Shown here piece by piece: positions 17,520 to 62,275 of a DNA stretch of 64,000 nucleotides. Every line of letters starts with the position of its first letter. Position 1 is the stretch's first letter. This stretch comes from Isoetes taiwanensis. Lineage: Eukaryota; Streptophyta; Lycopodiopsida; Isoetales; Isoetaceae. The stretch is taken from NCBI GenBank assembly GCA_021234155.1, contig JAJEKV010000020.1, positions 4,820,563-4,884,562 on the forward strand, read 5' to 3'. The notes under the pieces were generated by a model, which saw nothing but the letters and a program-made list of their open reading frames with translations, was not told the origin of the DNA and did no database searches. The translations under genes were made by a program, and so were the position numbers.

Positions 17520-17748
17520 AGATGGTCATCTGTACTTGACTTGACATTATACATGTTGGAGGTTCTGATGCGCATCTACTTCTTATTCCTGATTGTCTAG
17601 TATCATAATTGCTGCCGAGGTATTTTCCTTGAAAACCTTTCGAGGTACGGGTTTTAAATCCTCGTAGTAATGGTTGTACTAGCCCATTATATGGGTCCCA
17701 TGACCTCTTGGTCTTTAAGGGCATTAAAATATCTATTCTATTCTATCC
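17520..17748 (+). mobile_element. 3' fragment of the U-hairpin LINE family (copy D)
   Basis: This fragment ends in a pentanucleotide tail (ATTCT repeats, 17732-17747), as in the longer copy at 36600-38672. The shared parts are the hairpin at 17608-17671, the sequence after it (GGTCC..ATGACC..TTGGTCTT) and the tail. No coding part remains. Confidence 0.6.
17608..17671 (+). other. ENE-like U-rich hairpin (copy D)
   Basis: The sense RNA forms a lower stem (ATTGCTGC with GTAGTAAT through G.U pairs, then CGAGG with CCTCG). Opposed U runs (TATTTT and GTTTTAAAT) follow, then a short upper stem closed by a CCT-TTCG-AGG hairpin after an AAAA bulge. The G.U and A-U changes relative to the other copies keep pairing. 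Confidence 0.55.
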
Positions 17749-18995: not shown

Positions 18996-20199
18996 GAACT
19001 ATATATAAGGCAAATACCCAGTTCTACTTCCAGAAATGGGATCCTAAATTTGACCTCCCAGATCTGAATAAACTATTCCACCCAGCCTTGTGTTCTGTAC
19101 AAGGGCTTAACCCGATGTACTGGCATGAAGAAATATTCAAAGAACGTTTCACAAAGGTTGGTGACTACATTGGATGGGAAGCAGTCCCCGAAAGAGCCGC
19201 AAGGATTTGGACTCAACTGAATATCCTGAAACCTATCCCAAATTCTATGGAATACAAGGAATTTTGGTGAAACCAAAACTCTCAAGTTGAATTGGCAGGG
19301 TATCCCAATTCCTTGTAATAAATGTAGTCTTCAATTGCATGGAGGAGGTGTATGCCAAGGTAAATGGATGAAGGACCATAAGATGACATTAGACAAAGGC
19401 TTGTCCACCTGCTGTTCCAAAATTCTCAAGAGTAAATTCGAGGGAGCAGTGGACTGTAGTTAACAAGAATAAAAGGTATAAAAATGGAAGTGCCTATAAA
19501 AAGCCAAGAGCAAAGGGTACTTTCCTTTCTCTTATGGCCAATGATGAAAACCTCAATAATGCTAAGCTGCTCCTAGATACTTTCTCCCTGGCATCTGGAG
19601 TGATTTTTTACCAAGTCTCCCATGGAATTCGACTGCAATATGGAAGAGAGCATGGATAAAGGTACTGAGGAGATTAAGTTTTCTTCAGAGGAAGACATGA
19701 GGAGCACTGACCCTATAAGTCCTATGGGCCAAGGGGTGGTCAATATATGCCAACAAGAGAAGGTGCAACCTAATGGCCTAGTAATTGACACTTGTGTCAA
19801 TAGGCTAATAAGTCCATTGAGTAATACTTTGGCAGCTGATGACGGAGAGGATAAGGACGAGACTTTTTTCACCCCAACAAGAAAGGGGGACCAAAGTATA
19901 ACATCTCCAGGTGGCCTGGGAATTGAAGCAAATAGACCAATAAGTCCACCTGGTCAACCTTTCCCAGATGGCCTGGAAATTGTTTCAGAATTGAACAATA
20001 GGCACTAAGCCCATCTAGGCATATCTTGGCTGAGCTAAAAGGAAATGAAAATCAACAAAGCAATGTCAAGGAAGGTGATAGTGACAAGTTCTATACTCCT
20101 CATACTAGGAAAAAAGGATCTAAAGTTGTGCACTTCTCGGAAAACAGTCCAGCCTTGAACTTGATGAGCCAAGGCAAAAAGAAATTATTTGCCCAATGA
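18996..20199 (+). pseudogene. LINE ORF1 remnant with CCHC zinc knuckle
   Basis: The N-terminal part resembles the end of a DUF4283-type domain (WDPKFD.., then KVGDYIGW) in the frame of 19088. After a shift near 19260 a perfect CX2CX4HX4C zinc knuckle is read at 19314-19355. Two more shifts (between 19355 and 19450, and near 20005) lead to a Ser/Pro/Asp-rich tail. The protein would bind the element's own RNA. The stop codon TGA at 20197-20199 overlaps the ATG of ORF2 (ATGA). Confidence 0.75.
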
Positions 20200-23100
20200 G
20201 GATCAGAACATGGAATTTGAGAGGAATTAAAGGTCCTCTCAAGAGGAAAAGGGCTTTAATTGCATTAAAGGAGATGAAGGCAGATATTATTCTGTTACAA
20301 GAACATAGATTACCTGAATTTGAAACATCAAATTTAGGGAATTGGATCATACCAAATGGAGATTCTGTTTGGGCACCAGCAGATGGAACAAAAGGAGGTA
20401 TTTGTAAGGTCTGGAAGGGTTTTAATTATGTGAAAAAATATAGGCATAGCAGTGGCAGGTGGACTGTAGCTGTGTTAAAAAAAGGGAATAATGTCATTGG
20501 AATAATTAATGTATATGCCTCAACAGATCCAGCTGAAAGAGAGGAACAATGGAAACAAATTCATGTTTGGATCCAAGCTCATCAAACTAAAAACTGGCTT
20601 ATGGCTGGTGACTTTAATAACACACCAATTTGGGAACAAAAACTTGGTAAACAGATGAATATGTCCAAGGGTGAAAGACTGGCTTGGGATAGGCTGATGT
20701 CAAATTTCATCTATATTCCTCCATCCTCCTCGTATCAATACTCTTGGAGCAATAAGAGGAAAGGTGACCAGAGAACATTCTGCCTGCTAGACAAATTTTA
20801 CTTATGCAATAATGATCTTGAGGACTGGGACAATCTAACTACTTCTTGTGATGTTGGTAATTCCATCTCGGATCATTTTCCTCAGTTCCTAGGGAACGTG
20901 GCAACTCCACAGAAATGGGGCACAAATACCCCATTCAAGTTTAACACATGGATGCTAAAGAACAAAAAGTTATGTGATGACTTCATAGTGTTTTATAATC
21001 AGCTCCCCAAGGTCCCCATCACAGAATCCATGAATTCTTTTGTGCATAAACTCAAGAAGATTAAATCATGGGTCAAAGAATGGGGTAAGGAGTGGAATCT
21101 GAGGAAGAAAAAGGAAAGGCAGGATGTTTATGAAGCCATGAGGGAGATTAGGAAATTATTATTCCAAGACAAAGACAGTAAAATTTGGCACAAAGTGAAG
21201 CAGAGTTGGAGATTAAAGTTAAGAAAATTGAAGAAGCGAGAAGCTAAAAAGTCCGGGCGTTTAGAAGTAGGTGCAAATATATAAATGAGATGGATGGTGC
21301 AGGCTTAGCTTTTCTTCTTGAGCGCAAAGAGCCGAATTTTAAACAATGGAATTGTGCGAGGTTAATAGATGATGAGCAAGGGAAATCAGGACAAGGTCTC
21401 TCAATCGAGATACAAGAATTCTTTTCACAAAGAGTACCAAACCCTATTCAACAATTATGAGGTGGATGGAAAGATAATAGATGAATTCTTCAAGTAAAAG
21501 AAATTCCTAAGGGGACAAAAAAATAGAGGACAAGGAAATTATTTGAAAAACACACGAGGAAAGGAAATAAAAAGAGACACTAAAGATTTTTTCAATGGCA
21601 CATGGTAAGAGGGTAACAACATTGAGAGGGGATGGATGCCTGGATTTTATATTGAGTTTTGGAAGATTATGAAAGAAGATTTTATCACCTTCATCCAGGG
21701 AGCATGGCAAGCCAGATACTTACATTCAACAATTAATGCTGGCCACATTACCCTCATACCTAAGGTAGGGGGCCCAATGAACATAGGGGATTGGAGACCA
21801 ATTTCCTTGACCAACACCACTTATAAAGTGTTGGCTAAAATCTTAGCAAATAGACTGAAGTCGAGCTTAATCAAAGTTATTAATCCATGTCAGTCTGCGT
21901 TTCTTCCCCTAAGGAACATCCTAGATAACTACATTGGTGTTGTTGAGGGCTTACATTGGAACAAACTATCCAAACAAGAATGTATGCTCCTTAAGTTGGA
22001 TCAGAAGAGCATATGACACAATAAGTTCGCAATTCTTGGAGAAAGCTATGGCTCATCGGGACTATCTGATATGGTATACCAGAAAGTTTATGGATTTAAC
22101 ACAACAGCATCCTCAGCTTTGATGATAAATGGATCCCCTACTGATCAGTTCCCTTGCAGAAGAGGGGTAAGGCAAGGCTGCCCCCTAGCCCCTTATCTCT
22201 TCTTGATTGTGGCAGAAGTATTGACAAAATTGGTGTTACACATGCATGCTAAAGGGGACATTCAGTGTTTGCAGCTACCAGGAGGGGAAGGTATCTTTTC
22301 TATCATGCAATATGCTGATGACACATTTGTTTTTTTGAAGAAGGAAGGAAATAGTCTTCTAAACTTTTTAACTGCAATGGAAAAGTTTGGCAAAATATCT
22401 GGAGTTTGTTTAAATAACAACAAGTGTGCCATCATTTTGGTCTTTGCAAGGAATTAAAATTCTAAACGAAGATGCTTGGAACAGTAATTTTGGGCATCCC
22501 TCTGGCATTAAACTCCTCACTCAAAGGATTGTGGGATCCAATTGTGACTCGGATCAAAAGGAAGCTTGGATCATATTCCTCCTCCCTATCCCTGGCTGGC
22601 AGAATTCAGATAGCAAATGCAGTCATAGGCAGTACTCATGTTTATTTCTCTTCTGCAATTATAGGTGACAAAGCCTCATATAGCAAGATTGAAGCAGCCA
22701 TCAGAAAATTTATTTGGCAAGGGGTACATAAAGTGGCATGGGATGATCTGACTAAATCTAGGAAAGAAGGAGGGTTAGGTTGCAAGGATTTATTTGTACA
22801 AGCACAAGCTTTAGCAGCTAAGATGATTTGGAGAGCCATATAGAATAATTCCCCATCTCCAGCCCAAAAATTGGTTAGATATTGGGTGCAAGAGTCATAT
22901 CCTGTAGGCAGTCATAGCTTAAAACACCAACTACCAGACTCTGCATATTTCCAATTTACACCTTGTCCTAATACATCCATCATTTTGAAAAGAATGTTTC
23001 AGGCCTGGAACTTGGCTTCCATGTGTTACAAACCTCCAATTCTTGATGCAAAATCCAAAGATGTAAACTTCTTTTGGCATCCACGTGTGGTAAATAGTGA

Positions 23101-27485: not shown

Positions 27486-28116
27486 CGAGTGATGGAAAAT
27501 GAAATCCATTTTTTGATTAATTGAAAGGTCTTTATGTCTTATATCATGTGCTAAAATCCTAAACTGTAGGGCTTTTATATTTCTTGGTCTTAATATAAGT
27601 TCGTACGATCTTATAGTTGCTAGAAACAGTGCCCAGGCAGTTAGAGATGCAAAGGGTAGATGGACGGAAAAAGCAAGCAAGCAAGCAAACATAGGCAGTT
27701 AGAGATGCAAAGGGTAGATGGACGGAAAAAGCAAGCAAGCAAGCAAACATAGGCTCTTGCTCATTTATGCAACATCTGACAGCAAGGTAGTGTTGTGGCA
27801 AAGGATCTCATTCATGCACCGATCCGGCGCCAGGGCACAAATACGACAGATCCAGCGGCAGGCAATGATGCAAAAAGACCTCGTGTTTCTTTATTTCTAT
27901 TTCTATGCTAAACTCATGTAAAGGAAAAGGTGAAAGGGTCAAGCTAAACAAAGCTTCTAATGTGGTTATTCATGACAACTCATTCCCAGACACACACCAC
28001 ACGTGATGAGACTCATGCTCACCCACTTTATTTGCAGAGCACACCACACACGATGAGACTTGCACACACGCTATGAGATAGGGCACTGTCTTGCTCTTCC
28101 TACATATTAGTTAGAA

Positions 28117-28380
28117 CTAAATTGAATTGGACGGATTTTTCTCGTCCACGGAGACTAATAGGCGTATGAGACCCAATCAAAGAGCGCACATTATGTGACA
28201 TTTCAAGGCAGTGTCTGAGGACAGTCGACTGTGCATATCCATGCTCTGGGAGTATAATCCCAGTGATCCCACTGAAGCCGTGTCCAACGTCACATGAAGC
28301 AGCTTATTAGGCGGGACCAACTCAACACAGCATGCCCGTATATGGGCGAATGCCAGACAGCTCTGAAGAATGATGTTCAA
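28117..28380 (-). mobile_element. U-hairpin LINE family, 3' fragment (copy C)
   Basis: Minus-strand 3' end homologous to 32230-32620 and continuing after the insert at 31305-31600. The tail is CAATTC-like. The hairpin region present in the other copies is deleted here, between GCGCAC and ATTTCAAGG at about 28188-28202. Confidence 0.65.
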
Positions 28381-32229: not shown

Positions 32230-33340
32230 AATGAAATGAAATGAAATAAATTGAATTGAATAGTATTTTATTGTCCACAGAGACCAATAGATCTATGGGA
32301 ACTAATTAAATAGCACATCAAACTCATTATTGTCAGGATTAAAAAGCCCTTGCCCCGAAGGGTTTTAAAGGGAAAAACCTTGATAGTAATAAGCGTATTG
32401 GTAAACTATACAATGATACATTTCAAGGCAGTGTTTGAGGATATAACTGAGTGTGCATATCCATCACCTCCTGGAGTATAATCTCAGTGACCCTACCGAA
32501 GCCATGCCCAACATCTAAGCAGCTGGTTAAGTGGGATCAACTCAATATAGTGTGCCCACATATGGTCGAATGTCAGACAATTCTAGAGAGAGTGACACTC
32601 ATCCTTAATGACAATCAGTTAATAACACTGACAAAGTCTATTCTCGCACGCCACCTGAATCCATCTGACTGTCTCAATTCTGAGGCAAGCCGAAGCTAGA
32701 AAGACTTTCTGTAGCTGCTCCAACTCATGCTAGGTGGCAAATATACCACCGGGCCGCGGACTTCGACCTTGTATAGAAGAATGGGCTCCACTACGACTTT
32801 GAACAAGTGTAACTGATAGGTTCAGTCATACAACTTTGCTTTATAACCCTTGTTTTGCATTGCATACAATGAAGGAAATGCCACTTCCAAATACTTTTAG
32901 GTGGATGCCGTCTCCACGTTTTGTCCTTGATAAGTGAAGGGGGGAGGCCTTGGCTGACGAGAAGATGAGATAAGCAGTACCTTAGTCTTCGCCAAATTAA
33001 TGCTCATCCCAAGCCCAACAGGAGCTATCCAAAGGCATCTACATGGTGTTGCATGTCATCTGGGGTGTACGATAAAAGGTCCACATCGTCAGTATATATG
33101 AGCTACCTAATGATTTGGTGCATGTGTTAAGCTCCACCCCCCATGTCCAGCAAGACAACCTTGCAATTGATCAATATAGAGACCAAATAGCATTGGAGAG
33201 AGTGGGCATCCCTCGCGGAATTGATAGGTTGGCCTCACGGTGTCAGTCGGCCTGAGTATGTCTCATACAACATGTATACTGCATTTTTCAAAACCATAGC
33301 AACTGCCTCAATTTTTTCCAAAACTTTTACCGAGGTATAG
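32230..33340 (-). mobile_element. U-hairpin LINE family (copy B), reverse transcriptase and 3' end
   Basis: The minus strand reads a decayed reverse transcriptase: a GCPLS-like block near 33210, YTDD at 33085-33096 followed by VDLL, then a TKVLLI block near 32970 and a YKYLG-like region. The 3' UTR carries the U-rich hairpin (32326-32390) and ends in ATTCA/ATTTC repeats (32210-32265). It matches the longer copy A. It is truncated at its 5' end and full of stops. Confidence 0.7.
32326..32390 (-). other. ENE-like U-rich hairpin (copy B)
   Basis: In the sense RNA a lower stem (ATTACTATCAAGG against CCTGACAATAAT) leads to opposed U5 runs. Then CCC pairs with GGG as the upper stem, with an AAAA bulge before a CCC-TTCG-GGG cap. 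Confidence 0.6.
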
Positions 33341-33714
33341 TGTCTACAGCCTTTGCAAAACTGGCAAAGCAGCACACAGGTCATACCGGCGATTCCTGCT
33401 ATCTTTAATCAAGATCCGCAAAATAAAAATACAACTAATGGTGGAGTGTCAGAACCTGAATCCTGCCTGTGTGAGAGCCCGTACCCCTGTTTCCTCTGCC
33501 CACATCATCAACTATTGCTCAAGAATTATTATCCGCAATTTTGCAAATAGCGAACTGATTATGATTGTTCGATAATTGGCTAGACTGTGGTCTACTATGA
33601 GGGGAAGGTACAATTCTAAGTAAGGTTAACAAGTCTACACTTACTTTTGAACTTTTTAGAATTGCATCTAATTCATCCCTCCCTCCCTCCCTCCCTCCCT
33701 CCCTCCCTCCCTCC

Positions 33715-34920: not shown

Positions 34921-36599
34921 TATCACTTCTTGTGCTGCTGCATAAATTCATAAGTATAAGTATTTTTCCTTAGAGTCATGAGTTTGAGATCCCAGGAGAG
35001 GATCTCGGTAGGACCTCAAAAATGTTAGGGAGAAGTCTGGCTAAATCCCCAACCTTAGTGGTACTAAGTGTTGGCAAGAGATGCCAACTAGGTCAACACC
35101 TTTAGATCACTTGAGGTGATCAGTTTGTGCCAAAACATCTGAAGGAAAAGTGAAAATTTTGCAGAACTTTCTAGGTTCCTGAAGCAAAAAAATCTAATCA
35201 AGCAAGAAAGAACATAGTATGCAGAGATTTTTTGTGTTTCGCCATGAAATCACCTTATAAATCAAGCTTGAGATCCAAAGAATGATAGAACGAAAGTCTA
35301 AGTTGAAATCCAAAAGATTTGAGAGCTAGACGATTTTCTGACCAAGTCAAAAATAAGTCGGTAGCCCAATCCGAGAGCTGAAATTTATAGTAGAATATGG
35401 ACATACATACTTTTTAGAGATTGAAAATATGGTGGAGTCTGATGAACAAGTGGTTTATGAGGCAATTGTGGCTGCAAACAATTTCGACAATGCATGGGAG
35501 ATTTCAGATGCGAAGAAACTTTAGGTGTGGGGGGTGCCGAATGAGCGTGCGAACGTGGATGACCACCTTCAATATCATAGTCTCCATAAATAAAGTCATG
35601 AGCGGCTTCCTGGCTTTGCTGTCTGGCCAATCTAGTAGCGGTTTGGCTGAGAAGCTCTTCTTGAGTAAAACGCTGAAGAGACATCTTAGGGATGAAAAGA
35701 AGAATCTAGGGCCCAGCAATCAGCAACAGTGTTTGAGGCTGGGTTCGGGATAGCCTGAATCCTCCATGAAGGCCTTTGTGTCAAACAGATAAATTCTAAG
35801 TAACAGAGTGTCACATGAGATTTGCAAAAGAGAAACTAGGAACTAACAACAGACATGCCAAGATAAGAATCCTTGAAATGATCAAGAAAAATATATGAAG
35901 TCTCCAGAACACGGAGATGAGACAACTAGAAAATACTAAGACTTGCCTAAGCTTCTAAGTCTAAGCTTCTGATATATATAGTACAATGGCCTTGAGCCCA
36001 AAATAGCAAAAGTGTCGTCTCAGATCTCAGTTACCTAATCCCGAAATCTCTACTGAAAGTGCAGGAAAATCCGTCGTAACATCTGGAGTCATGATTGCCG
36101 TGGTTCTTGCTGCATGAGACTCACGCTCCAAGGTTCACTTTTCTTGGTCGTGAGTTCCTCACGCCGTAGATTCTCGCGCTTCTTCTTTGGTGGCTTGGTC
36201 TTGCTCCTGACGTGGACACATGGCCCTTGCTTTTGGGCTCTTTTGTATACCTTAGAAATAGTCATGTGCCCTTGGGCACGGGACTAACACTCACCAGAGA
36301 TGAACTATGTCCTGGACACCTGCTTGTAGAATCTCGAGCGCAACTCCACTGCTCGAGAATGTGAATTGTAGGAGTTGCGAGCAGTCCTCGCCCACCAAAG
36401 CAAGGGCCTCCATGAAGAAGCTCATGAGCATCTGCAGTGGTGTGTACATGAACTGGCAAGACAACAACGATTCCAAGAAGAGCTGAGCTCCCAGCTCCAG
36501 AAAGGACAGGCCAATGCATAGGCCAAAGTAGTGCCACACGTCGAGCGGCCTGCGCACAATAGTCAAGATTGTCCTAGGCTCCTACACACAAACACCCCA
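34921..36599. other. No gene recognised
   Basis: Frames at 35385-35684 (-) and 36262-36566 (-) are open but match nothing I know. The first starts with a Gln/Arg-rich helix and could be more of the retroelement to its left. Confidence 0.4.
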
Positions 36600-37269
36600 T
36601 TCCGTGCCTCAGCTACGACTGGACTATGGACACACAGAGGCTGCCCGAATGCTCACAGATGACTTGGCTGACATTTTGCAATTCCCTACGCTAGACCAAC
36701 AGGCAAACGTGCTGATTGACATCCTCAGCGCGGCGACAACAAGGTGCTTTGAGAGAAGTCGTCCCCGACGGACCATGGGGCCACGACCTTCCTATGTAAT
36801 CATTGGTTTGATGCGGAGTGCAAGGAACACAAATGCTGGCTTTGCTAGATCACAAACCCTACTCTATGCCCACACGCGGTCAGACAATACTGCCTTCTTC
36901 TTAAGGTTAAGAAGGCCAGGTACATCACCGCCCATCAGCAGGAAATGTTCTTCCTTTTGGACCGTCATTCGAGGAATTCTGGCAAATGGTGCTCAGAAAG
37001 CCAGTACAACCTACAAGGAACATTACGTCTGAACAGTGGAGGCAATATTCGCAGCAACTTTATAATCCTCATGGAGCACAGGCGAAGGTACCCCCACAGC
37101 ACAACCAGTACTAGAAATCATAGAGGCAGATGTAGACCAGGGCCTACAATGTCTAGCCAATGGAAAAGCGCTAGACCTGGATGGTATGCAGGCGAAGTTG
37201 CTCATAAATAGGACTCAGGCCACGATACCCAACCATTGATCACATCTTCAAACTTTGGACTAACAGATT

Positions 37270-37720
37270 CCGACAACGAGACATGTATTGCTGCTTTTGT
37301 GGACTTCGCAAAGGCTTTTGACATGATGCCATGGGAAAAGCTGTGTGCAAGATTGCAAAACCCAGTGGTCCTTGCAGATTTGTAAAATGCGTTGTGCAGG
37401 CTGCAGTGACATGTTTAGGCCGGTTGCATCTAACATGCCAACCATTCAATAGCAGTATCGGGGTTCACCAAGAATGCCCTCTGTCTTCTACTACATTGTT
37501 TGGACTGTACATTGACCAATTGACGAGCTGACTTGCTGAAAATGGGGGCGATGGAGCTCACCTCTTCCATCAGATTGTCAGGCAGCTCATATATGCTGAT
37601 GATGTGGATCTCCTTGATGCCAAGACTAAGATGGTTCCGTCAGGGGTTCTCTCCTTCAGTTATCGGGGGCAGAATGTGGAAGTGGCATCCACCTATAGAT
37701 ATTTGAAAATGGAGTTTTCT
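37270..37720 (+). pseudogene. Reverse transcriptase core of LINE copy A
   Basis: Frames broken by several stops carry the AFD motif of the palm, the (Q)xCPLS motif and the YADD catalytic motif in the right order and spacing. The first catalytic Asp lies in AFD and the other two in YADD. Confidence 0.75.
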
Positions 37721-38507
37721 CTAGGATGCAGTGGGATGCTTCTATCCACCTATGGGTGGTAGTGGGCTAGAAGGCGTTGTATGGCATGCAGAACACAGTC
37801 ACAGAGCAGAGTTATATGACTGGGCTCATCAGTCACACCTGTCCAAGGTCTTGGTGGAGCCTGTCCATTTATATGGGGTCGAGGTCTGGGGCCCTGTGGT
37901 GTCCCTCGCTACCTAGAATGATTTGGAGTGTCCCTCGCTACCTAGAATGATTTGGAGCAGGTGCAGAAAGCCTTCTTAGTCCGAGCACTGCGAGTGAAGT
38001 CCATGGTCCCATATTAGATCTTGCTATAGGAGACAGGTTCCTTACCTCTTAAGAGGGCAGCTCTAGGTCTACCTTTAGAAGGTCACTATGGGCGATGCTC
38101 GCCTTCCTAGCCTGGCTTATGCCGTCGCAATGGAGCCACAATGCCTCAAGGCCTGTTGGAAGGAAAAGCGAGCCCAGTGGCTCGACAGGTAGAATGTGCA
38201 GGAGCATATATGCATGGGGAACCACGGTAGGACAAGCTCTATAGATGTTGTCAAATGGGGGCCGTTGAAGATGAATGCCATATCCTATAGGGATGTCCAG
38301 CATATGACCAAATCTAGATGCGCTATGCTGAGTTGGTCAGGCCTGGCCAACCGCTACATGTGATACTCAACGCGGCTTCAGTCCGGATGCTGGGACCATA
38401 TCTTTAGAAGGTTATGGATCTGTAGGACCAACTCTGTCCTGGGACACACGCATGACTTGAACTTGTTTTGTCTCATATGTATATTAGTACAGTTTGACAT
38501 CATTCTT

Positions 38508-38572
38508 ATTACTGCCATGGTTTTTTCCCTCGAAAACATTTCGGGGCAGGGATTTTTTAACCCAGCAGTAAT
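38508..38572 (+). other. ENE-like U-rich hairpin (copy A)
   Basis: Lower stem ATTACTGC (38508-38515) pairs perfectly with GCAGTAAT (38565-38572), and GG pairs with CC above it. U6 (38521-38526) faces U6 (38553-38558). CCCT (38527-38530) pairs with AGGG (38548-38551), and the cap keeps the AAAA bulge and a TTCG loop. It lies 62 nt before the pentanucleotide tail. Confidence 0.6.
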
Positions 38573-38672
38573 AGGTCTGCTGCACTCTCTCTTTTGGGTC
38601 CTATAGGCCAATTGGTCTTCGTGGATGATAAAAGTCTATTCTATTCTATTCTATTCTATTCTATTCTATTCT

Positions 38673-40388
38673 TCCCATGAGTGGAGCTTAATAACAAGAT
38701 CATATATCAAGCTCCAAGTAATAGTCCCCACATCCACAACATGACTCTAAGCTAGTAAGGCACCAAATTGGGGAGCGGGGGGGGTGGGAGGTCTACTAAC
38801 CTTGTAGCGGCCATAGAGAAGAGCTAAGTGGCTAGGCACTGGTGGGATTGCTGGAGTTGGGAATGGAGGCACTAGCTCTGAGGAGGAGCGGGAACTGAAT
38901 ATAAAGGTGATAAATGAAGGTATATATACAGGATTAAGTTAATAGTGCATATAAACATATAAATGTTGTAAAATGATTTAAATGTTTAGGGTTTAACATT
39001 ACAAGAAATTTATCGCGGCGGCACATTTCTCTTCTTTGACTTATTTGCATTTATGGTGATAAGGCTAAAACCTATGGTACTGTGGTGTTGTGTCTTGGAC
39101 TTAAAGTCCAAGCAAAGGGCTTGGAAGAAACCGATTGCTTTATAGGTAGACCATGGAAATAGATATTTTCTAGGCTTTGCCCTAAAACGCTTTACTGTAA
39201 ATGCATTTGTGCTTGGCCGAAAGCTTGCTCTATTCTCTAGAATGGTTTCCACCACTTTACTATGCTTTGGAGTACATTTGTGTAAACAGGAGCCTAGGCA
39301 AGAGATGCAAGGCACTGAATGCTGGCTGTTTGCTTCCCAAAAAGGTCCGGAAGCCAAGTTTTTGAAGGATGAATGGGTATAATGTTAACGATCAAGGGAT
39401 GCAAGGCACTGAATGCTGGCTATTTGCTTCCCAAAAATGTTGGGAAGCCAAGTTTTTGAAGGATGACTGGGTATAATGTTAATGACCAAGGACCACAAGC
39501 GGGTGTTGCATGCACCAAAATCTGATTTAGAAAGAAAATTTTCTGATAATGCAAGTTTGTGCAAATTGGTTCCCATCTGCACACTTACCTTTGACAGGCA
39601 AATCTGCTCGAAATCCAATCTCCAGCAGCCATCTCTGTGGAAACGTGTTCTACAGCGTCTAACCTTGTGAGACATTCTCCAGCTTAGCCTGATTCAGAAC
39701 TGCATTATAAATGAGATCAACAGCCCAGGTATAAATGGACGCATCTGCCATAGCCAGAACTCTGGATTGCAATAATAGAACCGCGGGATTGCAAGCAAAA
39801 AAGAAAAAGGAAGGTTTATTTGATTCTTCAAAAGCACCACCTGAAGGAGGAGCAACTGATTGATGTGTTAAGCTCAAGAAAGGTCATTTCTGGCAGAGGC
39901 AGTCCATCTGTCTACATGTTCAAAGCTTCTGATGCCAAGAGCAGATCACAAATATATGTTGGAGTTCTGTCAGAGTTCTCTGCAACAGATGAAGCTTGTG
40001 CCACTTTTGTGCTCCAGCGATGGCGGTGCAATGTGCCATAGCCAGCAAGCTGCTCCGGCGGCATTGCAACAACAGGACGCCCGCTTGCTTGTCAGGTCAG
40101 TCTTTTTTTTCTGCTTTTTTCTTATTTTTTTTAAATCCCGATTTTTTTCTCAGAAAGGTACGTGTCAATTGTAGGGGAAATCATCAATCAAGAATATTCT
40201 AAAAGCATATTTGTAGGAGAATTATATATGTTAGATAAAGTGTAATGTTAAAGTTACTAAGTGCAAGTGGATTTATCATATCCCGGTATCCCCTCAACAT
40301 CGGTGGATAATGGGTGTTGGTGATGTGGTAGGTATCCACAGTCATGGACACATAACCTGAGAGAGGACGACGTACAATCCCGATTTAT
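38673..40388. other. Intergenic, no gene recognised
   Basis: A 94-bp unit is tandemly repeated (39304-39397 and 39398-39485). The frames at 39820-40041 (+) are open but unrecognised. Nothing else is identified. Confidence 0.45.
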
Positions 40389-55094: not shown

Positions 55095-55848
55095 ATCCTT
55101 CCATTTCCTCAAAAAAGGGGAATATTTATTCTGCACTAGTGTACCTTCTGGCCCTTACATCTTTACTAAGATGATTGCTAAAGTAATGTGTCCAGTGATT
55201 GGTTGCAGGTAGGAGTGTTTCTTCCCCTATTGTATATTTTCTACTCTAAAGCATCTGTCAACTGCAAAGGAAATCGAATTGGTTATGCTTTATGTGTGAA
55301 AGAGGTTGGGTATGGAAAATAGAAGGCTCATGTAGTACCTAACATTGGCATTCTAATATTACAAAATCAGTTTATAGGAAGCTCCCTTTAAAACTTTGAA
55401 GTAGTTCTGGTAAATGATACCTTTTGTATCGGCAGAAACTATAATAGTTGATGTTGAGATTAATGTTCATAGCTGCATCTTAAGGACATATAGTAGATAA
55501 GATATAGATAATGCACAAGGCTTCTTGTGCGGTACAAAGCATGTAGAAAAGCATGCTTAATTCTAAGGTTTATATGAATTTTTGAAGGGTATTCTTCAAA
55601 GAAGGTTGTTAACCGTTAAACTGTTTCCAAGTACATGAGGTTAATACAGCGACATAAGCATGCTACATTCTACCACATGAAGTATTATTTAAAGACCACA
55701 AGTCGACCTAAGAAAGAGCCCAACACTGGATACTGGGTACTTGTATAATGTCTCAATAATTAATAAATGTCAACTTAGATGCATTCATTTTTACCTCAAA
55801 TTGTATTCTTTACCTGATTGAGTTCTCGTGGACGTAAAAATTCCATCC

Positions 55849-55892
55849 ATCCACCTACCTACCTACCTACCTATCTATCTATCTATCTATCT
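55849..55892. repeat. (CCTA)n(TCTA)n microsatellite, unit 1
   Basis: A short CCTA array passes into a TCTA array inside duplication unit 1. Confidence 0.9.
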
Positions 55893-56619
55893 AGTTTTGA
55901 TAAAAAGAAAGAGGAAATATAATCCATTCTAGAAGTACTAGTTTAGGTACTTTGGCGGGTCCTAAATTGGACACCTGTAGCATGCTTATGTCCATGTACC
56001 TGTGCATGATATATCAGTTTGATCTGCCACTTATGTAGTCTCCTATATAATGGACGAATTTTTTTTTTTTTGAAGTCTTTTAATGGAAAAAAAAAAAACA
56101 TGTTGTATACAATGGTCTTTGAATACATAAAGAGAAACTTATGAATATTGTTGTAATGCCTTTCAATTGAGCCTACACACAAGTTACTAGATTGAACCTG
56201 ACATGAAGCACAACTCTTGATCTGAAACTAAAGGTTTTTCAGCTACATGGGAATATAAAAACCATGTTATGACCTATGCTTCTCATTAGGGGGGGCTCAC
56301 AGCATGCTTAATTCTAAGGTTTATATGAATTTTTGAAGGGTACTCTTCTGGTGACTTGATCAACCAAAGAAGGTTATTAATTGTTACCTTAAACTGTTTC
56401 CTGGTACATGAGGTTAATATAGCGACATAAGCATGCTACATTCTACCATATGAAGTATTATTTAAAGACCACAAGTCGACCTAAGAAAGAGGCCAACACT
56501 GGATACTGGGTACTTGTATAATGTCTCAATAACTAATAAATGTTAACTTAGATGCATTCATTTTTACCTCAAATTGTATTCTTTACCCGATTGAGTTCCT
56601 GTAGACGTAAAAATTATAT

Positions 56620-56805
56620 CTATCTACCTACCTACCTACCTACCTACCTACCTACCCACCTCCCTACCTCCCTGCTTGCCTACCTACCTCCCCTCACTTT
56701 TTGCTCCTTCACTTTTTTTTGCTGCACCTTTGCTGCTGCCACTTTGCTGCCTGCTTTTGCTGCTGCTGCCTGCCTACCTACCTACCTACCTACCTACCTA
56801 CCTAC

Positions 56806-56852
<47 letters not shown>
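56620..56852. repeat. (CTAC)n...(CTAT)n compound microsatellite, unit 2
   Basis: CTAC repeats (about 56625-56690), a TGCTGC-rich spacer (about 56700-56770) and CTAC then CTAT repeats (about 56771-56850). They explain Leu-Pro-Thr-Tyr repeats in spurious ORFs. Confidence 0.95.
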
Positions 56853-56853
<1 letters not shown>

Positions 56854-57303
56854 ACTTTAACCTTGAACACTAACATGCTTTTAACATTTATTTTGAACTT
56901 TTGAACAAGTTTTGATAAAAAGAAAGAGGAAATAGTATCCATTCTAGAAGTACTAGTTTAAGTACTTTGGCGGGTCCTAAATTGGACACCTGTAGCATGC
57001 TTATGTCCATGTACCTGTGCATGATATATCAGTTAGATCTACCACTATTATATTCTCCTATATAATGGATGGGAAAACTTTTTGAAGTCTTTTGCTGGAA
57101 ACAAAAACATGTTGTATACAATGGTCTTTGAATATATAAAGAGAACTTATTAATATTATTGTCATGCCTTTCAACTGGGCCTGTGCACAAGTTACTAGAT
57201 TGAACCTGACATAAAGCACAACTCTTGATCTGAGACTAAAGGTTTTTCAACTACATGGGAATGTAAAAACCATGTTATGACCTATGCTTCTCATTAGGGG
57301 GGC

Positions 57304-58505
57304 TTACATAAACCATCATAACTTCCAATAGATAGCTAGGCATTTTACTCGTCCCAACGGTTTCTTGACACAATAATTACATATGATAAGTGAGGGTAGG
57401 CACAAACTACCCACGAACAGAAAATAAAATAAGGGTTAATCCAGTTATACGGTCCTAAGGGTTAATCTATTCTATATTTGAAACTCAAGCGGCTTTCATG
57501 CTTTTACCATCTATGTTTTCAAAGACATCATTATTATTAAGAATAGAATAGAATAGATCAAAAGTACGAAAGTAAATCTCATGCCTCTTGAACTTCGTTT
57601 GTTGAGAACCAAGACCATGTCATTTCCTACATAAATTAATCATTTAAAAATACCAAAGCTCTAATACTTTTTGTCAAGAGGTGAGTATCTGTGAAAAGGA
57701 TGCGGGCCTCTCCGTAAAGATGGTAGTGGGTAGTCTTTGCCTTGTGGTGATAATACATGTCCCTAAAGAAGGGAGATTGGGCTTCCGAGAGCAGCCTATT
57801 GTAGCAAAGTAGAAACCTATAATCGTAAGGGCTTGATAGCCATTGAGGAAGAAGGGCTTCATGTTCAGCAGATCCAGAGTGATACGAGTATTGAGTGGCC
57901 ACATATGAGCATTATGACTAGTGTCAAGTCTAATAGTGGAAATGTGGAAACAAATAAGCTTCGTACATTTTATATCTTTTTTTTTTTCCGTAGATCACAA
58001 TCTTGATTCTACTTAACTTTTGAAGAATGTAAAAATGTATCAATATTAGAATCCCATCGATCCGAGCCATCAGATCGGCATTCTCGAATGGGCGAGCATG
58101 CATCTCTTGCATGCATGCATTGCATGCATTTTCTGTGGCTCTGGTTCATTTGGGATCGCTATTTCTTGCAGCTTCTTCATCGTCTTCGCATCGGCGTTTT
58201 CTCCTCTCTCAGCAGTTCCCTTGACTCCCACCCACCCTCCCTTAATGTGTATATTATTGTAAATGTTGTTTTTGTTGCGTGGCACGCATGACCAGCCCTT
58301 CGCTTTTTCGAGGTTGTTTTTTTGTCGCGTGGCACGCGTGACCAGCCCCTCGCTTTTCGAGGTTGTTGTTTTCTTATCTTTATGTTTTAGTTTGTTGATG
58401 TGCAGGTACAGCAGGATGCGCGATTCCGTCTTCTTCAGGCTTCGGGGGTTTCTTTGTGGGAGCATTTGTTTTTGCAGCCTTACGTCGTGTCCAAGCCCCT
58501 TGCAA
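57304..58505. other. No gene recognised; short tandem repeat
   Basis: A unit of about 49 bp occurs twice (58269-58366) with GCGTGGCACGC and GACCAGCCC. The frame 57636-57904 (-) is open but unrecognised. The stretch from about 58130 to 58600 may be part of a transcript carrying the hairpin at 58506. Confidence 0.4.
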
Positions 58506-58576
58506 AGGGCTTATCACTAGGGTTTTTCCTCGAAAACCCGAAAGGGCGAGGTTTTTTAATCCTGGTGATAAGCTCT
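58506..58576 (+). other. ENE-like U-rich hairpin (copy F, independent locus)
   Basis: A 16-bp lower stem (58506-58521 with 58561-58576) pairs completely with two G.U. GUUUUU (58522-58527) faces UUUUUUAAU (58552-58560). CCTCG (58528-58532) pairs with CGAGG (58547-58551). An AAAA bulge (58533-58536) precedes a CCC-GAAA-GGG cap (58537-58546). The lower stem is unrelated in sequence to the LINE copies, yet the core and bulge are the same. The flanks match no element I recognise, so the host transcript is unknown. Confidence 0.65.
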
Positions 58577-59528
58577 CTGCAGGTACACTGAACCGATATC
58601 TGTAGAATTTTTTTGGAGTCCAGATGATATAACTGGATATTCTTTGTGTTTTTTCATTGTGGGTACCTTGTAAATATGCAGCTACCCACTCGAATGTCAC
58701 CGTGAAAAGAGATCACAACTCTATTATCATTTTTTCTAAGGTGTCCTTTAGAAATGCAAAATGTTTTCTAGTGTGCTTATTTTGTTTTCGGATTTTATTT
58801 TGTTGTAGTTGTTTATCATGGTCTTTTTGAATTTGGTCAAAAAGCAGAAAAACAATCATAAACAGGCACAACAAGCTTTTTTTTTTCTTCTTTTTTTTTT
58901 TCAATAGTAACAATACAAAAAACATAACATTTGGAAGTCAAGAAAAGCCTAAAAGGGGAGGGAGCTTTTGCAGAGGAGGCAGGTAGTATGGCTATTGCAA
59001 AGCCAAGAATCAATACAATCTTTGTGAAATGGATGTGCACAGTGTGGCATTCATCCAAACATATCTTCATCCTGCATATTCAACACAGAGCACTCTTAGT
59101 CTAAATTTGCGCTCAACTCTGAGTCTCTACTGCGGGATTTTTCTGTAATTGCCATAAGTAGGCCATAATCTTGGGCAAATTTCTAGGCAGATCTATATTT
59201 CTCAATTCATATATGTATCTACAATGTGTGGCCGCTTTGAAATGATCAAATGATCAAAATCGCTAGAACTGCAAAACCCAAAGCTTCTGAAAACTACAAA
59301 AGACTGACTAGCTAAAACTGGCAGAATCCCCTGCTCTCAGAGGCAGGGATAGATTCAGTACATGTTTCAAAAAACTTTTGTCTGTGTTTTGAAAGTATAA
59401 ACCATATCTTTTGTTGTTTTAAACCCAGCTAGAAAAAACGTTAGGTGCACCCACATCACCTACTGGATGCATCAACGTAGACATCGGTACATCTATGAGA
59501 CACATTGGATGCGTCGAGGAAACAAAAT
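58577..59528. other. No gene recognised
   Basis: AT-rich DNA with T runs at 58877-58902. Nothing is identified. Confidence 0.45.
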
Positions 59529-61842: not shown

Positions 61843-62275
61843 TGAATTGAATTGATTTTTATCGTCTACGAAGACTAATAGGCTCATGGGACTTAATCAA
61901 AGAATACACCAAATGTTTTACTGTCAGTACCAAAAAGTCCCTCCTCGAAGGAATTTCGAGAGAAAAATCTTGGCAGTAATAGGCATGCTGAGAAACTGTA
62001 CAATGGTACATTATGATCCGTTTCAATTTTAATACAATGTCAAAAGGGTGGTTAGGCAGCATCAACTTAGCATAGCGGACTCGAATATGGGTGAATGCTA
62101 GAAGAGTATGGCATTCGTCGTCAATGGCACCTTGTTGGCAACATTAACAAATTCTGTTCTCACGTGCCTGTTTCAATCTGCGTTTCTTCATGGGCAAATG
62201 TGTACGGAAATAGCGTTGTTGACCTATACAAGCATGCAAATGATCTGGTACTAGTAGTGTATAAGTTGTATTTAA
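61843..62275 (-). mobile_element. U-hairpin LINE family, 3' fragment (copy E)
   Basis: The tail is AATTC-like (61843-61856), the hairpin is at 61917-61980, and the following 300 bp matches copies B, C and D1 (landmarks GGCTCATGGGACTTAATCAA and CTGGTACTAGTAGTGTATAA). Coding sequence is not recognisable. Confidence 0.65.
61917..61980 (-). other. ENE-like U-rich hairpin (copy E)
   Basis: In sense RNA the lower stem is ATTACTGCCA against TGACAGTAAA. U5 faces U5. CTCTCG and the GGGA side form the upper stem, and a CC-TTCG-type loop caps it. It is less regular than copies A and B. Confidence 0.5.

Follow-up and report, generated by a model that had tools for sequence, protein, structure and literature searches.

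A U-loop hairpin of ENE-like architecture shared by LINE subfamilies and other repeats of the lycophyte Isoetes taiwanensis

A hairpin with two facing runs of U recurs near the 3' end of a LINE of Isoetes taiwanensis and also in repeats other than this LINE. Five examples, four of them in LINE copies, lie in the window, i.e. the whole stretch of 64,000 nucleotides of contig JAJEKV010000020.1 analysed here. We favour, with some reserve, the view that this is an ENE-class RNA-stability hairpin shared by several mobile elements, in which a predicted triple helix with the A-rich 3' end would slow decay. Found in thousands of copies, the hairpin probably helps the mobile elements to keep their RNA alive.

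Four LINE copies in the window carry the hairpin

The original prediction had placed an ENE-like hairpin in four LINE copies (A, B, D and E). All four were recovered where it had put them, each in the sense of the element (Table 1). When the hairpins were folded alone and compared with dinucleotide shuffles, the z scores of the minimum free energy (MFE) were -3.78 for A, -3.16 for D and -2.13 for E; copy B taken alone is not significant, as its z score is only -1.40. The D hairpin, which belongs to another subfamily, has a lower stem lengthened by UAGUA/UACUA. The covariance search of the window described below also reported an antisense echo of copy A (38487-38584, minus strand, 18.2 bits, E 0.39).

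The distance from the hairpin to the first ATTC unit is 66 nt in A, 65 nt in B and 64 nt in D, and about 65 nt in E as judged by eye, a chance ATTCT occurring earlier in that copy. The predicted spacing of 60-130 nt is thus borne out at about 64-66 nt in all four copies. The predicted CCC-UUCG-GGG cap fared less well, being intact in copy B only; it is altered to CCU-UUCG-AGG in D and to CCU-UCG-AGG with a three-base loop in E, and is broken in A (CAUUUCGGGG).

Table 1. Positions of the hairpins and of associated LINE and F features in the window.
Feature	Position	Strand	Basis
Hairpin of LINE copy A	38496..38594 (core 38508-38572)	+	Covariance model, 86.5 bits; copy in training set
Second, smaller hairpin, copy A	38597..38626	+	Folds of subfamily majority sequences
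GATAAAA, candidate A-rich partner between second hairpin and tail, copy A	38627..38633	+	
ATTCT repeat tail, copy A, seven units	38638..38672	+	
5'-truncated LINE body, copy A	36355..38673	+	blastn with L043, L065, L068, L070, L047
Hairpin of LINE copy B	32305..32402	-	Covariance model, 97 bits; copy in training set
LINE body, copy B	32243..33589	-	blastn; tail side from sequence
LINE copy C, same-family 3' end, hairpin deleted	28111..28380 (junction about 28188-28198)	-	
Hairpin of LINE copy D, other subfamily	17596..17692	+	76.5 bits; copy in training set
Hairpin of LINE copy E	61896..61992	-	77.5 bits; copy in training set
Fifth hairpin, in F repeat	58498..58593	+	56.4 bits, E 7e-10; not in training set
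Body of F repeat holding fifth hairpin	58048..58691	+	Matches to 39 scored relatives

In copy A the body is made up of a 3' UTR and of pieces with homology to LINE loci that contain fragments of a reverse transcriptase. Across 32 A-type loci the homology starts at varied 5' points and stops at a common 3' end or tail, as is typical of a LINE. A reverse transcriptase is encoded (RVT_1 5.5e-15 in locus L047, and 1.8e-7 and 8.5e-8 in L065), with the R2 reverse transcriptase (2.4e-7) and then human L1 ORF2 (3.8e-4) as nearest solved relatives in sequence, while most other frames tried gave no match. Taken together, the 5' truncation, the shared 3' end and the reverse transcriptase indicate at the sequence level that copies A, B, D and E are hosted by a LINE, whose clade is not settled. 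The tails of 112 LINE copies consist of ATTCT units in 43, ATTCA in 27 and ATTCC in one, with fewer than two units in 41 within the stretch examined.

A further copy of the same family, copy C, which the original prediction had overlooked, retains the LINE 3' end with the hairpin cleanly missing, for which skipping of the hairpin by the reverse transcriptase is one possible cause. Only copy C itself, among 40 scored places, runs through the deletion junction; for the other 39, the main pieces stop at query base 155-203 of 286. The junction looks private to this copy, and no hairpin-less LINE lineage was found among its 39 scored relatives.

The window contains several other features. Another kind of LINE is present at 20124-22016 (plus strand) with Exo_endo_phos (4.2e-7) and RVT_1 (5.7e-11) fragments, an open frame at 9682-10092 (minus strand) matches the Replitron HUH endonuclease (PF21859, E 2.4e-9), and three direct-repeat blocks of 159-278 bases, 92-94% identical and spaced by 773-1015 bases, occupy 55616-57302. 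Elsewhere in the genome, the LINE locus L042 has an uninterrupted frame of 457 amino acids with kinase and NAF domains (1553-2923, plus strand), approximately 1 kb upstream of the LINE 3' end, which is possibly an intronless gene or a retrocopy.

Architecture of the hairpin

Majority sequences were determined for four LINE groups (A1 from 9 rows, A2 from 32, BE from 51 and D from 22). The 5' half of the LINE hairpin runs from P1 through GG, UUUUU, P2 (CCCUCG or CCCUUG), AAAA and P3 (CCC or CCU) to UUCG, and the 3' half returns through GGG or AGG, C, the rest of P2, UUUUUU, AA, U or C, and CC to P1. The core GGUUUUUCC..GGUUUUUUAANCC is common to LINE groups A1, A2, BE, D and G as well as to a repeat family F and a further context H (both described below), with GGAUUUUCC and one A fewer in the F2 variant.

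The majority sequence of each of the four LINE groups has facing U5 and U6 runs, and so do the F, G and H copies. At least two U4 runs are present in 95 of 114 rows, some single old copies having lost one run. The AAAA bulge, too, is retained throughout the LINE group majorities and in F, G and H. In the U-loop folds of representative sequences, the U loop is directly flanked by G-C pairs, GG/CC on the lower side and CC/GG on the upper, and two U-A pairs lengthen the lower side. Placement near the transcript 3' end is shown for the four LINE copies of the window by closeness to the tail. In the LINE groups, the U-loop hairpin is followed by a second hairpin, an A4-A6 run and the tail, in that order; the second hairpin reads AGGCC-N4-GGUCU inside GUCC/GGAC and is shortened to GACC-UAUU-GGUC in the D subfamily.

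By its architecture the hairpin is a candidate member of the ENE class, and it would be expected to work like an ENE. In this reading, P1, whose sequence is family-specific, holds the facing U5 and U6 (then AA) runs, with G-C pairs closing the loop on both sides, and the top is made up of P2, the AAAA bulge and a short P3 closed by a tetraloop of UUCG or GAAA type. The U runs would clasp the A-rich 3' end of the transcript as a U.A-U triple helix, which would slow 3'-end decay and may thereby favour transposition. The match to the ENE put forward in the original prediction holds for the conserved hairpin, its U5/U6 loop, the G-C flanks and the location at the LINE 3' end, while the triple helix, its A-rich partner and the protection that it would confer are predictions from this architecture.

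Conserved single-stranded U runs, an A bulge and stable tetraloops might equally suit a protein. The hairpin could hence be a binding site for a host or element protein, such as an export, localisation or decay factor, with no triple helix formed. We regard this as very unlikely, as such a site predicts G-C-flanked facing U runs less specifically than an ENE does.

The core also occurs outside the LINE

A covariance model of the kind proposed alongside the original prediction was built from 39 LINE copies and run over the window. It gave one additional hairpin that had been overlooked, located in a repeat of family F (Table 1). This fifth hairpin has its own P1 sequence of more than 20 bp and a GAAA cap, combined with the same U-loop core and AAAA bulge as in the LINE, and folds with an MFE of -48.4 kcal/mol (z -8.3). 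The placement of the hairpin in a LINE, near a 3' end whose tail is not poly(A), is upheld, with the qualification that it is not confined to the LINE.

Family F is an unclassified repeat of about 0.55-0.75 kb. Both limits of the window copy were obtained from 32 of 39 scored relatives, which match from query position 746-752 to 1389-1393; because this copy served as the query, 58048-58691 are the limits of this F copy itself, and other F copies (L112-L115) reach further at the 3' end. In 15 of the 39 relatives a further, partial 5' unit of some 178 bases lies upstream. In the fetched sequence of the family (L111-L115, L021 and L035), neither an ATTCT tail nor the second LINE hairpin was found. 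The LINE and F can be aligned over only ~30-70 bases around the core. Variant F2 was detected in L021 by the covariance model. In context H (L117) the core sits within a stem of ~19 bp, without the LINE tail, whereas G (L116, L118 and L119) is a further LINE subfamily with the tail present.

Other aspects of family F were noted in passing. A TATA-like box lies close to the 5' end of member L021, F units lie head to tail in L021 and L035, and several members have the 3' end ..TTCTAGAAT or ..CCCAGAAT. An interpretation of F as an LTR is not favoured, with few same-strand neighbours at LTR distance among the places listed: none was seen by eye in two listings, and one pair, 2.96 kb apart, was present among 100 places listed (contig C106).

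The occurrence of the same core, each time within its own stem, in LINE subfamilies, F and H points to a function that different elements share, for example RNA stability. As F lacks the LINE tail, the enzyme of one LINE explains the hairpin poorly, and the presence of the core in an unrelated family is easier to reconcile with a role in RNA stability than with one restricted to the LINE. It is nonetheless conceivable, if unlikely, that the LINE, as one of the stringent type, uses the U-loop hairpin as a recognition structure to start reverse transcription from the 3' end, and that copies of it in other repeats allow these to be mobilised in trans. The tail, ~65 nt from the hairpin, is a short tandem repeat like that of some stringent LINEs and has a second hairpin and an A run next to it, and the junction of the hairpin-less copy C is unmatched among the 39 others scored. 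Against this, F and H hold the core with neither the second hairpin nor the ATTCT tail in the fetched sequence, and a hairpin outside the LINE speaks against an exclusive LINE-recognition role. Furthermore, a recognition stem-loop needs no invariant U runs, and the second hairpin, being nearer the tail, is the better candidate for recognition by the LINE enzyme.

Copy number of the core in the genome

To the extent that the core can be written as an exact pattern (GGTTTTTCCN{14,28}GGTTTTTNAANCC), its abundance was determined by searching the genome of 1,658,258,908 bases in 1,110 contigs (1.66 Gb). The pattern occurs 9,541 times (4,679 + 4,862), a count that is conditional on the flanking G-C pairs because the pattern demands G-C letters. 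The reversed core pattern, used as a control, has 0 occurrences in the same 1.66-Gb genome. The 27-base F core with the GAAA cap, counted apart, is found 2,206 times (1,084 + 1,122). The share of hairpin-bearing sequences among the copies collected is not an estimate of their frequency, since these copies were fetched with hairpin-bearing queries or cores.

The core pattern is also found in 61 stretches of a 257-Gb prokaryote collection and in 2 viral contigs of IMG/VR (L120 and L121). In the 60 prokaryote matches that could be measured, the arms pair at a mean of -8.5 kcal/mol (lowest -18.1). We ascribe both sets to chance and reject them as true hairpins, the prokaryote arms being weak and L120 and L121 folding as other hairpins.

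A comparison of the window to Rfam yielded, at the gathering threshold, only a tRNA (60.3 bits, 11320-11391, minus strand). Loci L021, L035, L112, L115 and L064 gave no Rfam match. When E values up to 1 were admitted, the F hairpin region reached 17.8 of 100 bits and L064 17.3 of 45 bits, in both cases far below threshold.

Stem pairing is kept between families

The families differ in the sequence of the P1 arms. The arms of the F copies are 33-46% identical to those of the LINE types A1, BE, D and G and 38-58% identical to those of H. Between F1-type and F2 the identity is 25-29%, yet both make long stems. The duplex formed by each family's own P1 arms has an energy of -18.7 kcal/mol in A1, -25.7 in BE, -23.9 in D, -19.5 in G, -24.2 in H, -38.2 in F1 and -27.2 in F2, compared to means of -6.4 to -11.6 kcal/mol for shuffled arms across the seven families. 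The observed value was reached by 1 in 1000 shuffles for A1, 3 for G and 0 for BE, D, H, F1 and F2. When left and right arms were exchanged between the seven families, 2 of the 5,040 possible assignments were as low as or lower than the true one (which is itself included). Among the mutually divergent families BE, D, H, F1 and F2, the true pairing was the lowest of 120 assignments.

Within the LINE the picture is less clear. When 39 LINE copies are aligned, 80.0% of cells are paired by the structure (35-42% when slid), double-changed cells number 43 compared to 28.7 in shuffles, and 16 pairs show a double change compared to 12.4, with 25 of 500 shuffles reaching 16; as structure and alignment derive from the same copies, these scores lean in favour of pairing. 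RNAalifold gave 0 consensus pairs for these 39 decayed copies.

Column-level covariation was assessed by a G-test with a tree-based null, our own re-implementation in the style of R-scape. No pair reached an E of 0.05 or below in 112 LINE copies. None was significant in 104 mixed LINE, F, G and H rows (best E 0.255, between two columns of the same arm) or in 96 LINE rows with anchored arms (best E 0.200, again two same-arm columns); 20 of 124 rows were left out of the anchored alignment, as their U-run anchors or full arms are missing. We read these null results as a lack of power, and not as support for the hairpin, because the copies derive from few master lineages, carry loop-side indels and include dead copies that decay freely. 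The original prediction had held that pairing is kept between copies and had made its case depend on covariation above phylogenetic background. The arm tests uphold pairing between families, but the column-level analysis does not extend this to LINE copies, where no covariation above that background was found; at this level, and in a test of low power, the outcome goes against the prediction.

Conservation along the element was compared between LINE groups in two cases. In the last four 40-base windows, from hairpin to tail, the A2 majority sequence shares 70-80% identity with the D copy of L039, as opposed to 23-57% in earlier aligned windows, apart from one with 72%. For A1 compared to BE, identity is 90% in the hairpin windows and 75-85% in the coding windows. 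An inverted repeat devoid of RNA function that hitch-hikes in the elements would be consistent with the free decay of single copies. We consider this extremely improbable, given that families keep pairing with differing arm sequences and that the U-loop core is all that the LINE and F retain in common.

Competing folds of the U loop

The first U run is complementary to the AAAA bulge (GGUUUU/AAAACC, for example within 58520-58570 of the window), which permits a second fold. Unconstrained MFE folding of 19 representatives gave the open U loop in 11 and other folds in 5 (D and E of the window, L116, L119 and L062); in the remaining 3 (L008, L114 and L118) the AAAA bulge pairs with the first U run. 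For the window hairpins, the facing-U loop is accordingly present in the unconstrained MFE structures of A, B and the fifth hairpin and absent from those of D and E. Across 124 hairpins, the first U run is placed on the bulge in 36. When the two states were imposed, 10 of 11 sequences folded better with the A bulge held open than with the first U run forced onto it, the gain being 0.7 to 11 kcal/mol; in D, the exception, the forced fold is better by 1.6 kcal/mol.

These folds raise the question of a two-state RNA switch, in which the bulge would pair with the first U run, the second U run would close on AA-U-CC, and the ENE-like loop would exist in one state. The two folds are separated by 0.7 kcal/mol in F1 and F1b, the alternative is preferred in D and in the minority of representatives and hairpins given above, and the AAAA bulge on which it depends is kept in all LINE group majorities and in F, G and H. 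For A1, BE, G, H, F2 and the A, B and F hairpins of the window, however, the alternative fold is less stable by 4.0 to 11 kcal/mol, and the complementarity itself may stem from the proximity of U, A and G/C runs. A switch thus appears decidedly improbable.

A candidate A-rich partner

For the ENE-class reading, the nature of the stretch clasped by the U loop has to be considered. Because the DNA tails are without poly(A), the partner in the LINE would be either a poly(A) carried by the RNA and left uncopied into DNA, or the encoded A4-A6 run that precedes the repeats. The candidate A-rich tract of the LINE is GAUAAAAAUC. At least four consecutive A's occur 30-65 nt beyond the hairpin region in 96 of 112 LINE copies, compared to 46 of 112 in an upstream control. 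Runs of A8 or longer follow the hairpin in 3 of the 72 LINE copies with enough flank and in 0 of 71 controls.

A more specific proposal, which we regard as tentative and on balance doubtful, is that the hairpin represents a distinct ENE class, defined by the four-A bulge and the tetraloop-capped P3, that has moved between unrelated transposons within a single plant lineage and protects the RNA of a LINE that is not copied from poly(A). Here the U loop would either clasp the encoded A run or hide the poly(A), so that reverse transcription starts in the repeats.

Relation to known RNA elements

ENEs in plant transposons are already known; Tycowski, Shu and Steitz reportedly described them in plant and fungal transposable elements in 2016. 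The ENE of Evade (Arabidopsis Copia93) takes up A repeats into a triple helix in vitro, for which the U's and adjacent G-C pairs are needed, and protects RNA from deadenylation (PMC12501189). The Isoetes hairpin resembles Evade and the plant and fungal transposon ENEs in its U-rich internal loop, G-C flanks, sense orientation and placement in the 3' part of the transcript. It differs in its host, which is a LINE with an ATTCT/ATTCA tail instead of an LTR element with poly(A); in having a single pair of U runs, compared to the four U tracts of Evade (PMC12501189); and in its conserved four-A bulge, its capped P3, the sharing of a core across unrelated families and its occurrence in a lycophyte.

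The double-domain ENE of the rice hAT transposon TWIFB1 likewise places a U-rich internal loop in a plant transposon RNA, but it has two ENE domains (PMC10855403) in contrast to the single U-loop domain found here, the host here being a LINE or an unclassified repeat. The 3' triple helices of MALAT1 and MEN-beta are also built on a stem-loop with a U-rich internal loop (PMC11411715, PMC10855403). Their A-rich partner is genome-encoded rather than poly(A), which the A4-A6 run of the LINE would resemble; MALAT1 has ten triples, compared to five or six U's per side at most in the present hairpin. No MALAT1-like tRNA-like 3' signal was reported by Rfam in L064.

A conserved stem-loop near the 3' end, such as the Isoetes LINE has, is also a feature of stringent LINEs, one monocot L1 lineage among them (PMC3747384); that a plant L1 lineage bears such a hairpin is a further point in favour of a recognition structure. 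The second hairpin (GUCC..AGGCC-N4-GGUCU..GGAC) fits this stem-loop type well, whereas the U-loop hairpin is of greater size, lies at a greater distance from the tail and is found outside the LINE too.

An ENE in a LINE or in Isoetes was not present among the matches listed from the open-access literature. As far as these matches show, the new elements are the LINE host without poly(A), the lycophyte, the core across unrelated families and the combination of a four-A bulge with a capped P3, although the 2016 list of ENEs may include LINEs.

Implications

If the ENE-class reading is correct, ENE-type RNA protection would operate in a LINE that is missing the usual triple-helix partner, and in lycophytes. 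Thousands of natural variants are available, and the question arises of what the U loop clasps in the LINE. Furthermore, one core with stems rebuilt per element suggests that transposons may take RNA-stability modules from one another.
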